64,000 nt of DNA from Gemmatimonadales bacterium (lineage in GTDB: Bacteria; Gemmatimonadota; Gemmatimonadetes; Gemmatimonadales; GWC2-71-9), in contig DASUJH010000056.1 of the NCBI GenBank assembly GCA_036279355.1, positions 1-64,000 on the forward strand. The letters run 5' to 3'. The translations under genes were made by a program, and so were the position numbers. Position 1 is the stretch's first letter. Each line of letters starts with the position of its first letter. Under the pieces are notes generated by a model. It saw nothing but the letters and a program-made list of their open reading frames with translations. It did not search any database and was not told where the DNA came from. Shown here in pieces: positions 55,719 to 60,737 of the stretch.

Positions 55719-57104
55719 ATGCAGCTGTCCGCGAAGGAAGCCTGGAAGCGCATCCTCGACGAGGCGCAGCGCGAACTTCCGGCCGATATCATACGTAACT
55801 GGCTCGAGCCCACTGAAGCGATCGCCCTTGAAGAGGGGAACCTGATCGTCGGCGCGCCCGATCAGTTTGCCGCGGAGTGGAACGAAACCAAGCACGCATC
55901 CGTCCTCTCCCGGCTCGCCGAGCCGGTGGTCGGGCGTCCGACCACGATCGTCTTCCGGGTGAACGAAGAGCGCCGCCGCCGCCCCCAGATGGACTTCTTC
56001 GTGCAGACCACCGCCGCCGCGCCCGCCGCCGCGGCCGCCAACACCAGCACGCAGCCGCTCAACGAGCGCTACACCTTCGAGACGTTCGTCATAGGCAAGT
56101 CGAACGAGCTCGCCGCCGCCGCCGCCCACGCCATCGCCGAAGCCCCGGGCAAGACCTACAACCCGCTCTTCATCTACGGCGCCACCGGTCTCGGCAAGAC
56201 CCACTTGATGCAGGCGATCGCCCACGCGCGGCTCACGAAGGCCTCCGATGTCCGCGTGCTCTACGTGGGCGCCGAGCAGTTCCTCAACGAAGTGATTGAG
56301 AGCATCCACAGCCGGACCATGCCCGACTTCCGGCGCCGCTACCGAAGCGAGGTGGATCTCTTCCTGGTGGACGACGTCCACTTCCTCGAGGGCAAGGAGC
56401 AGACGCAGGAAGAGTTCTTTCACACGTTCAACGCATTGCACCAGGCCAACAAGCAGATCGTGCTCACCTCCGACCGCCCGCCCAAGGAGATCCCCGGTCT
56501 CGAGGCCCGGCTGGTGAGCCGCTTCGAGTCCGGCATGGTGGCCGACATCGGCCAGCCCGACCTGGAACACCGCATCGCCATTCTGCGCAAGAAGCAGGAG
56601 CAGGACCACCTGGAATTGACGATCCCGGACGACGTGCTCCGCTTCATCGCCGAACACGTGCGGTCGAACGTCCGGGAGCTCGAGGGGTGCATCATCAAGT
56701 TGCTGCTCTACGCCTCGCTCAAGCACAAGGAGATCGCCATCGAGCTCGCCCGCGAGGCGCTCTCGGACAAAATCCGGCCGGGTGAGGACGGCGCCGACGC
56801 ACGGGCGCGGCCGCTGCCCACGATCCACCGGGTCCAGGAAGTGGTGGCGCGCCGGTGGGGCGTGACCCCGGAAGGCCTCCGCTCCAAGGCGCGGATCAAG
56901 ACGCTCACCGTGCCCCGGCAGATCGCGATGTACCTGGCGCGCGAGCTCTTGCAGATGCAGCTGGTGGAAATCGGGCAAGCCTTCGGCGGGCGGGATCACT
57001 CGACGGTCATTCACAGCGTCGACAAGGTGCAGCGCCAGATGTCGCGCGACCGGAGCTTCCGCGAAAAGATCGAATACGCGCGCCAGGAGTTGTGCGCAGA
57101 GTAA
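55719..57104 (+). CDS. dnaA: Chromosomal replication initiator DnaA
   Basis: The 461-aa AAA+ initiator has domain I ([22 protein letters not shown] in pieces), a short Ala-rich linker (about 93-107), the ATPase with Walker [39 protein letters not shown], Walker [15 protein letters not shown], sensor and arginine-finger region ([13 protein letters not shown]), and domain IV with the DnaA-box reader [15 protein letters not shown]. The linker is shorter than in E. coli. Start at ATG 55719 has only a weak GAG upstream. It is divergent from rpmH; dnaN follows after a 217-bp gap. Confidence 0.98.
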
Positions 57105-57321
57105 TCCCCGTGTGGATGCGCGCGGTGTGGGCGCTCTGGAAGGCGCGGACAACGGCCGCGGCTCTCCGCGCCATACACACCGGATCGACAGCGGGTGAAC
57201 GATGGAGTGGCATGTGCCGCGCGAGCTTGGACCGCGCATCCACATCTCCAGGCCCTCTACTACTGCTGCTAGATATTTCTATTGGTCACGTAGTCTTGTT
57301 TTATAGCGCGCCGAGGAGTGG
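57105..57321. other. oriC: Candidate origin of replication (oriC) between dnaA and dnaN
   Basis: This 217-bp gap holds two inverted DnaA-box-like sequences, TGTGGATGC (57111-57119) and GCATCCACA (57236-57244). After the second come a GC block (57250-57255), the trinucleotide run CTA-CTA-CTG-CTG-CTA (57257-57271; 3-prime-GAT-type trios on the complement) and an AT-rich stretch to about 57305 (GATATTTCTATT, TTGTTTTATA). That order equals the basal unwinding module of bacterial origins. The AT run is striking in a genome this GC-rich. Confidence 0.65.
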
Positions 57322-58455
57322 ATGAAGCTCACCATTACGCGGGAGCAGTTGCAGGAAGGGTTGGTCGCGGTCGCGGCAAGCGTGCCGGCCAAGACGACGC
57401 TGCCCGTGCTGGCCAACATTCTGCTCGAGGCCTCGAAGGACGGGCTCAGGCTGTCGGGCACCGATCTCGACATCGCCGTGAGCACGACAGTGCCGGCGGC
57501 GGTGGATCAGGAAGGCTCCATCACCCTTCCGGCCCGCAAGCTGGTCGAGATCGTGCGCGAGCTGCCGAGCGCCCCCATCCGCCTCGTGGCGAGCGGCGAG
57601 CAGCGGGTCACGATCGAGTGCGGGCGCTCCAAGTTCCGCCTGCTCGGTCTGCCTCGGGAGGAGTTTCCCGCATTCCCCGCGGTCAAGTTCGACGGCGGCT
57701 GGAAGGTGTCGGCGGGCGACCTGCAGAAGCTCATCAGCCACGTCGCCTTTGCTGCGAGCACGGAGGAAAGTCGGCCGATCCTGAACGGCGTGCTCTGGGA
57801 GCTCCGGCCGGAGCGGATGCGGATGGTGGCGACCAACGGCCATCGGCTGGCGCGCATGGACGTACCCGCCGTGACCCAGGTGGGAACCGCGCAGCCGGCG
57901 GCCGGCCAGCAGGCCGATCTCATCGTGCCGCCCAAGGCACTGGAGCAGATCCGGCGTCTCTTCGGGCCCGAGGACGAGGTCGAGATCGCCCGAAGCGACA
58001 ATCATCTCGGCTTCCGCTCCGCGCGCACCCAGATCTTCACCCGGCTCATCGAGGGGCCCTACCCCAATTACGAGCAGGTCATCCCGCGGGAGAACGACAA
58101 GGCCGCCACCGCCGATCGCGCAGCGCTCTCGGCCGCGCTTCGCCGCATGAGCATCGTGGCGAGCGACCAGACCCACCGCATCCGCATGGCCTTCGCGAGC
58201 GGCGCGTGCAAGCTGTCGGTGCAGACGCCGGACCTGGGCGAGGCGCAGGAGGAAGTCACGGTCACCTACGACGGCGATCCGCTCGAGATCGGCTTCAACG
58301 CTTCCTACCTGCTCGAGATCCTGAAGTTCATCCCGACCGACGAAGTGCGGCTCACGTTCAAGGCGCCGGAACGGGCGGCCACCTGCGAACCGGTCGGCTG
58401 GAATGATTCGGCGAGTTTTCTCACCCTCGTGATGCCGCTTCGACTGGTGGACTGA
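57322..58455 (+). CDS. dnaN: DNA polymerase III beta subunit (sliding clamp)
   Basis: The 377-aa protein has three clamp domains, with MKLTITREQLQEGLVAVAAS, TLPVLANILLEAS, GLRLSGTDLDIAVS, the LPAREFPAFP-like PREEFPAFPA block, ESRPILNGVLWEL, VATNGHRLA and the C-terminal SFLTLVMPLRLVD. It forms a ring that tethers polymerase to DNA and binds HolA and MutS through its pocket. GAGGAG precedes ATG. It ends only 3 bp from the convergent lipoprotein gene, leaving no room for a terminator. Confidence 0.97.
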   Translation: MKLTITREQLQEGLVAVAASVPAKTTLPVLANILLEASKDGLRLSGTDLDIAVSTTVPAAVDQEGSITLPARKLVEIVRELPSAPIRLVASGEQRVTIECGRSKFRLLGLPREEFPAFPAVKFDGGWKVSAGDLQKLISHVAFAASTEESRPILNGVLWELRPERMRMVATNGHRLARMDVPAVTQVGTAQPAAGQQADLIVPPKALEQIRRLFGPEDEVEIARSDNHLGFRSARTQIFTRLIEGPYPNYEQVIPRENDKAATADRAALSAALRRMSIVASDQTHRIRMAFASGACKLSVQTPDLGEAQEEVTVTYDGDPLEIGFNASYLLEILKFIPTDEVRLTFKAPERAATCEPVGWNDSASFLTLVMPLRLVD

Positions 58456-60296: not shown

Positions 60297-60331
60297 GCGC
60301 TGCCCTCCGAGGGGCACCCGGAGGGCAGCGC
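60297..60331 (-). terminator. Hairpin after RNase P RNA
   Basis: Arms 60297-60309 and 60319-60331 are perfect 13-bp reverse complements (core CTGCCCTCCG) around a 9-nt loop. It lies immediately beyond the rnpB 3-prime end on the minus strand. A TTTT run appears only about 12 nt after the stem, so termination strength is uncertain. Confidence 0.55.
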
Positions 60332-60332
60332 G

Positions 60333-60737
60333 GCGGGTCGGGCCGTAAGCCGAGTTCTGTTCTTCCTCTTGCGAGGAGGATGGTCATCTGTCTGGGACGG
60401 CCGTCGCCAGCCGCCTCGAGCAGCCTACCCGCGGCTCGCCGGCGCCGCGTGAGCGGACATCCGGCGTGGGCGGTGCGGGTCGCACCTCGCCGCCTATTTG
60501 GCCTTGCTCCGACTGGGGGTTGCCGTGCCACCGTCCGTTGCCGGCGGTGCGGTGGGCTCTTACCCCACCGTTTCACCCTTACCCCGGCTCGGCCTTTCGG
60601 CGTTGCGGGGGCGGTCTGTTTTCTGTGGCCCTGTCCGTCGCCTCGCGGCGCCCAGGTGTTACCTGGCAGTCTACCCTGTGGAGCTCGGACTTTCCTCGAG
60701 CACCCGAAAGTGCCCGCGACCATCGCGCCCGGCCCGC
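60333..60737 (-). ncRNA. rnpB: RNase P RNA (bacterial type A)
   Basis: The minus strand has the conserved RNase P core: GAGGAAAGTCCGAGCTCC and ACAGGGTAG near the 5-prime end, GGTAAGGGTGAAACGGTGGGGTAAGAGCCCACCGC (seen in pieces as GGGTGAAACGGTG and GGTAAGAGCCCACCG), and ACAGAACTCGGCTTACG near the 3-prime end. Ends are set by the P1 helix, where GCGGG-x-CGGGC at the 5-prime end pairs with GCCCG-x-CCCGC. The 405-nt length fits type A. It is the catalytic RNA partner of the rnpA product encoded 5 kb away. Confidence 0.97.

Follow-up and report, generated by a model that had tools for sequence, protein, structure and literature searches.

We read the 217 bp between dnaA and dnaN (exactly 57105-57321) as the chromosome origin (oriC) of a Gemmatimonadales soil bacterium, carrying a basal unwinding system (BUS), with a probability that we put at roughly 93%. 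The gap adjoins dnaA and contains clustered DnaA boxes and a candidate AT-rich unwinding element, which are among the features by which an oriC is recognised, and the interpretation offered in a preliminary description of this DNA, that the gap is an oriC of the DnaA-trio design, is supported. The reading is carried by the sequence anatomy of the gap, its uniqueness and its evolutionary constraint, together with the residues of DnaA and the presence of DciA, all of which the analysis establishes.

Genome setting and GC skew

The window, i.e. the whole 64,000-nucleotide stretch that was analysed, is part of a contig of 76,388 bases (C56) in a 3.25-Mb assembly of 60 contigs. The dnaN identity reaches 87% against the nearest named relatives, which are Gemmatimonadales/Gemmatimonadetes MAGs. 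Upstream of dnaA, on the opposite strand, lie yidC and mnmE with rnpA- and rpmH-like ORFs between (mnmE, rnpA and rpmH were named by eye from the ORFs), giving the neighbourhood order mnmE-yidC-rnpA-rpmH/dnaA-dnaN (Table 1). An Rfam scan of the window returned one tRNA and an RNase P RNA (RF00010, 262 bits) and nothing else; the latter is found near the origin, at 60330-60736 on the minus strand, ∼2 kb past dnaN.

Table 1. Features of the dnaA-dnaN region, in window coordinates.
Feature	Position	Strand	Remarks
dnaA	55719..57104	+	TIGR00362, 516.6 bits; DnaA_N, AAA+ and helix-turn-helix domains
Upstream inverted DnaA-box-like site	57111..57119	-	Minus strand reads GCATCCACA, plus strand TGTGGATGC
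Ladder-proximal DnaA box GCATCCACA	57236..57244	+	2 mismatches to TTATCCACA; 12 bp before the ladder
Degenerate second tandem box ATCTCCAGG	57244..57252	+	Putative, from the aligned gaps of relatives
DnaA-trio ladder CTACTACTGCTGCTA, CTA-CTA-CTG-CTG-CTA	57257..57271	+	Unique in the assembly; conserved in relatives
AT-rich stretch, candidate DNA unwinding element	57270..57305		Contains the lowest-GC 35-mer of the window
GTAGTC, candidate inverted-trio remnant	57290..57295	+	Offset of 33 bp to the ladder start, equal to the relatives' median; one triplet only
dnaN, sliding clamp	57322..58455	+	TIGR00663, 322.4 bits

The 76-kb contig itself, from an assembly in 60 pieces, showed no clear switch in GC skew at dnaA, and the skew was followed in four relatives, three of which agree with an origin at dnaA. 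The lowest cumulative skew adjoins dnaA on the contigs of HRbin33 (G017) and of a second genome (G057), both sampled at 20 kb, and a third (G031) has its minimum near dnaA at a coarse sampling of 0.23 Mb. The exception is the MAG chromosome CP070716 (G142, L192-L211), in which the sampled minimum falls near 0/2.87 Mb and dnaN at 2.085 Mb, ∼0.8 Mb apart, a mismatch that misassembly or rearrangement might explain. Among the other relatives, one single-contig genome (G019) has a split dnaN whose two parts lie on opposite strands and 3.2 Mb from each other (L045 and L046; C1:2009566-2009979 + and 5232635-5233243 -), through either an inversion that broke dnaN or a faulty assembly.

Boxes, triplet ladder and AT-rich tract

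The published BUS rule (PMC8287927) combines a box with at most two mismatches, a spacer no longer than 16 bp and three or more NTN triplets, and box-to-trio spacers in published origins peak at 10-13 bp. In the gap the box GCATCCACA at 57236 has exactly two mismatches to TTATCCACA and is followed, across a 12 bp spacer, by five triplets of the 3'-NAN-5' form; the minus strand of the ladder reads 3'-GAT-GAT-GAC-GAC-GAT-5' and is the predicted DnaA-binding strand. Applied to both strands of the 64 kb, the published rule with at least three NTN triplets picks out two places, and the same box and spacer limits with at least five triplets pick out one, the oriC gap. The five-step ladder pattern CTNCTNCTNCTNCTA has a single occurrence in the 3.25-Mb assembly, at oriC, against 16 for the reversed control pattern. 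At the end of the ladder lies the AT-rich tract, in which 57270-57304 has 28.6% GC, with none lower among the 63,965 35-mers of the window. Box, ladder and AT-rich tract lie where the preliminary description had placed them and in the order it gave, the tract holding the window's lowest-GC 35-mer.

The two box-like words, TGTGGATGC (57111-57119) and GCATCCACA (57236-57244), were found in the dnaA-dnaN gap with 116 bp between them, as described. Taken singly, such words occur at chance frequency in the 64-kb window (36 sites within two mismatches of TTATCCACA vs 34.9 expected, and 14 within one mismatch of GCATCCACA vs 12.2 expected). In the gaps of relatives the upstream inverted site is less conserved than the ladder-proximal box, and sites of the TGTGG type are common near the dnaA stop. 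Positions 1-3 of the ladder-proximal box are free to vary in relatives and TCCACA is the retained core, at the same spacing to the ladder. The box ending in GC rather than AA, to which the design was said to extend, is present in the window but is a local variant, since relatives keep TCCACA.

The 'GC block' described between box and ladder is a weak point, as TCTCCAGGCCCT has 8 of 12 positions GC (67%) vs ∼70% for the window and so is not richer than its surroundings. The corresponding stretch of relatives looks like a degenerate second DnaA box with CCCT after it. From the aligned gaps, this putative second box sits inside the so-called block and overlaps the first in an 8 bp register; the box-like stretch is kept in relatives (counterparts ATTTCCAGA, ATTTCCCCG, GAATCCACA and GTTTCCACG), with 5 of 9 positions matching in the window.

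Conservation of the ladder and competing readings

We gathered the dnaA-dnaN gaps of relatives from the family, order and class and retained 143 distinct ones, in which no other stretch is conserved as well as the five triplets. Dinucleotide shuffles predict CTACTA in 9.2 of these gaps, (CTN)4 in 0.5 and (CTN)5 in 0.1; the observed counts are 128, 84 and 71 of the 143. The middle T, which is A on the other strand, is kept at triplets 1-5 in 98, 97, 84, 90 and 79% of relatives, percentages that are anchored on the ladder and so partly circular, a circularity that does not affect the whole-gap shuffle test. The full CTA triplet is found at these steps in 129, 116, 90, 100 and 84 of the 143, i.e. 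3'-GAT-5' is strongest beside the box, as in a BUS. Mean survival of six-letter words, computed over 76 less redundant gaps from Gemmatimonadales, is 0.30-0.64 within the ladder and 0.11-0.18 for the box pair, and drops to ∼0.01 across most of the upstream flank. The expectation that boxes, spacing and triplets would be conserved in relatives while other bases drift was strongly borne out. Against the reading, the exact ladder is absent from some relatives (e.g. L040, L152, L154), and a box within two mismatches of TTATCCACA beside at least three CTR triplets is found in only 48 of the 143. At each of triplets 3-5, 10-12 of the 143 relatives have CGA instead of CTA (3'-GCT-5'), breaking the central-adenine rule with the flanking bases kept.

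On a FastTree tree of the DnaA and DnaN ends, triplets 1-5 changed at least 11, 23, 42, 33 and 49 times, and 68 forms of the ladder occur among 141 rows. Because the triplets change repeatedly on the tree yet keep the middle T, their similarity reflects constraint and not recent common descent: the ladder persists although its letters turn over, and constraint is strongest on the triplets nearest the box. In the B. subtilis literature (PMC10201434, PMC8287927) it is also the box-proximal trio steps that matter most.

Could this constraint serve transcription? The ladder and AT-rich stretch lie ∼15-65 bp upstream of dnaN and might be mainly its promoter and leader, with replication starting elsewhere, and the enrichment of TTCTAT past the ladder in relatives (27 vs 2.5 expected) would fit such a role. 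We consider this improbable, as 57000-57400 holds no sigma-70-like promoter, the skew minimum lies at dnaA in three of four relatives, and a promoter leaves unexplained the triplet periodicity over 15 bp, the gradient of constraint away from the box and the fixed spacing of box and ladder. A reading of the region as promoter or terminator was rejected, with no consensus match in 57000-57400. It is still less probable that the ladder is one arm of a hairpin formed with the downstream GTAG/GCAG words and acting as RNA or cruciform. Many relatives do show partial complementarity between the ladder and the inverted triplets downstream of it, but the two do not covary (5.93 complementary bases with a genome's own ladder vs 5.90 with the ladders of other genomes, difference 0.03 ± 0.11), and the window's strand has no folding advantage over shuffled sequence (z = +1.27); the hairpin was rejected on both tests. 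A run of triplets arisen by chance between the genes of a codon-biased genome, in keeping with the chance frequency of box-like words alone, is refuted by a ladder that is unique in 3.25 Mb and conserved across the class relative to shuffles, and its probability is negligible.

Proposed mechanism, known systems and a candidate second trio

DnaA contains all three conserved Pfam domains and aligns over its full length with B. subtilis DnaA (8btg), whose I190, R264 and R379 correspond in the alignment to I193, R268 and R392 here. I193 is the isoleucine of the single-strand-binding ISM and R268 the arginine finger, so that both residues looked for in a BUS are present. R392 we take to be a box-binding residue, by the E. 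coli equivalent of R379. The helicase operator DciA is encoded in the genome (71.8 bits), and a search of the genome for PF07261 (DnaD/DnaB_2) gave no match. Access to the second strand by way of a DnaD recognition element consequently seems to be closed. We also observed a 637-aa protein with two DnaA-type AAA+ stretches (PF00308, 292 bits; L048:1033-2946, G000:C60:200532-202445), without match to DnaA_C or DnaA_N and encoded directly downstream of an ORF for an MglA-like small GTPase; it is possibly an Hda-like or polarity-linked ATPase.

By analogy with B. subtilis, and with experiments on H. pylori and T. maritima as a further guide to how it works, we infer how binding, strand choice and unwinding would proceed. 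DnaA would dock on the putative tandem boxes (57236-57252), and its AAA+ domains would polymerise from there onto the minus strand, each triplet of the ladder (57257-57271) taking up one protomer. The duplex would thereby be stretched and opened into the adjoining AT-rich tract, where the helicase would be loaded; the genome encodes DciA and has no DnaD match.

The arrangement resembles the BUS of B. subtilis oriC (DnaA-boxes 6/7 and DnaA-trios; PMC6669920, PMC8287927, PMC10721633) in its putative tandem boxes in direct orientation, short spacer, trios of the 3'-GAT-5' type on one strand, AT-rich tract beyond and dnaA-dnaN location, and the ISM isoleucine and arginine finger of DnaA are kept as well. 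It differs in that the boxes are more degenerate at positions 1-3 and the second box appears to overlap the first in an 8-bp register, and in that the genome encodes DciA and gives no match to DnaD. Tandem DnaA boxes are the most frequent form of BUS but are not obligatory. Runs of TAG trios with an occasional CAG are shared with H. pylori oriC2 and the T. maritima eTrio (PMC10316083, PMC8235120), the former having 5'-...TAA-CAG-TAG-TAG-3' (PMC10316083) where the window has 5'-TAG-CAG-CAG-TAG-TAG-3'; the box consensus of T. maritima is different, and the layout of H. pylori oriC2 is bipartite.

The sequence beyond the ladder offers a lead that lies outside the established system. The opposite strand of Gemmatimonadales gaps repeatedly carries a short inverted trio (TAGTAG/GCAGTA) ∼33 bp past the ladder start, although it is weak in the window. 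The word G[TC]AG[TC]A is present in 42 of 87 gaps of two Gemmatimonadales families (f1 and f3) vs 6.3 expected, whereas the forward word CTRCTR is at chance there beyond the ladder; these sequences are related, and the AT-rich tract also holds other conserved words such as TTCTAT. Scored with the ladder's own profile, a three-step ladder on the opposite strand reached p ≤ 0.05 in 18 of 58 non-redundant f1/f3 gaps vs ∼3 expected, and in 4 of 58 for the forward-strand control; the same triplet test was not significant in family f2 and in other orders. The inverted element lies 31.7 ± 4.4 bp from the ladder start, is less regularly placed from dnaN (40.9 ± 7.6), and was gained or lost at least 24 times along the tree.

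These counts suggest, tentatively, that Gemmatimonadales origins carry two opposed DnaA-trio sites, the minus-strand ladder and a short inverted run on the plus strand ∼33 bp further on, across the AT-rich tract; we regard this as rather unlikely. In other orders the arrangement would include an inverted box-like GTGGAA/GGGGAA site. A full mirrored module, of inverted trio and inverted box in every order, is unsupported, the triplet test being significant only in f1/f3. In place of the triplets, an inverted box-like word, [GT][GT]GGA[AT][AT], follows the AT-rich tract in 15 of 38 gaps from other orders of the class (L153-L190, downstream of the ladder; 1.8 expected), and in Gemmatimonadaceae the tract is followed by a direct TCCACA in 11 of 17 (0.5 expected). 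Our literature search found no paper describing an opposed second trio.

The BUS itself is already known, and is found here in a lineage for which we located no published origin description: the search returned no paper describing a Gemmatimonadota origin, and the supplementary tables of PMC8287927 may hold a Gemmatimonas entry. The suggestion that the system now extends to a high-GC lineage was overdrawn in that a further lineage was to be expected, because a BUS is predicted in 1755 of 2070 bacterial origins (85%; PMC8287927). The analysis yields many aligned dnaA-dnaN origins, densely sampled, from a lineage of which most members are uncultured, and their evolution shows which trio steps matter: constraint weakens the further a triplet lies from the box, as work in B. 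subtilis predicts. The inverted trio, if functional, would bear on how the second helicase reaches the opposite strand where DnaD is absent; if the opposed arrangement is true, DnaA could form another filament on that strand and so allow a symmetric placing of the second helicase in bacteria without DnaD.
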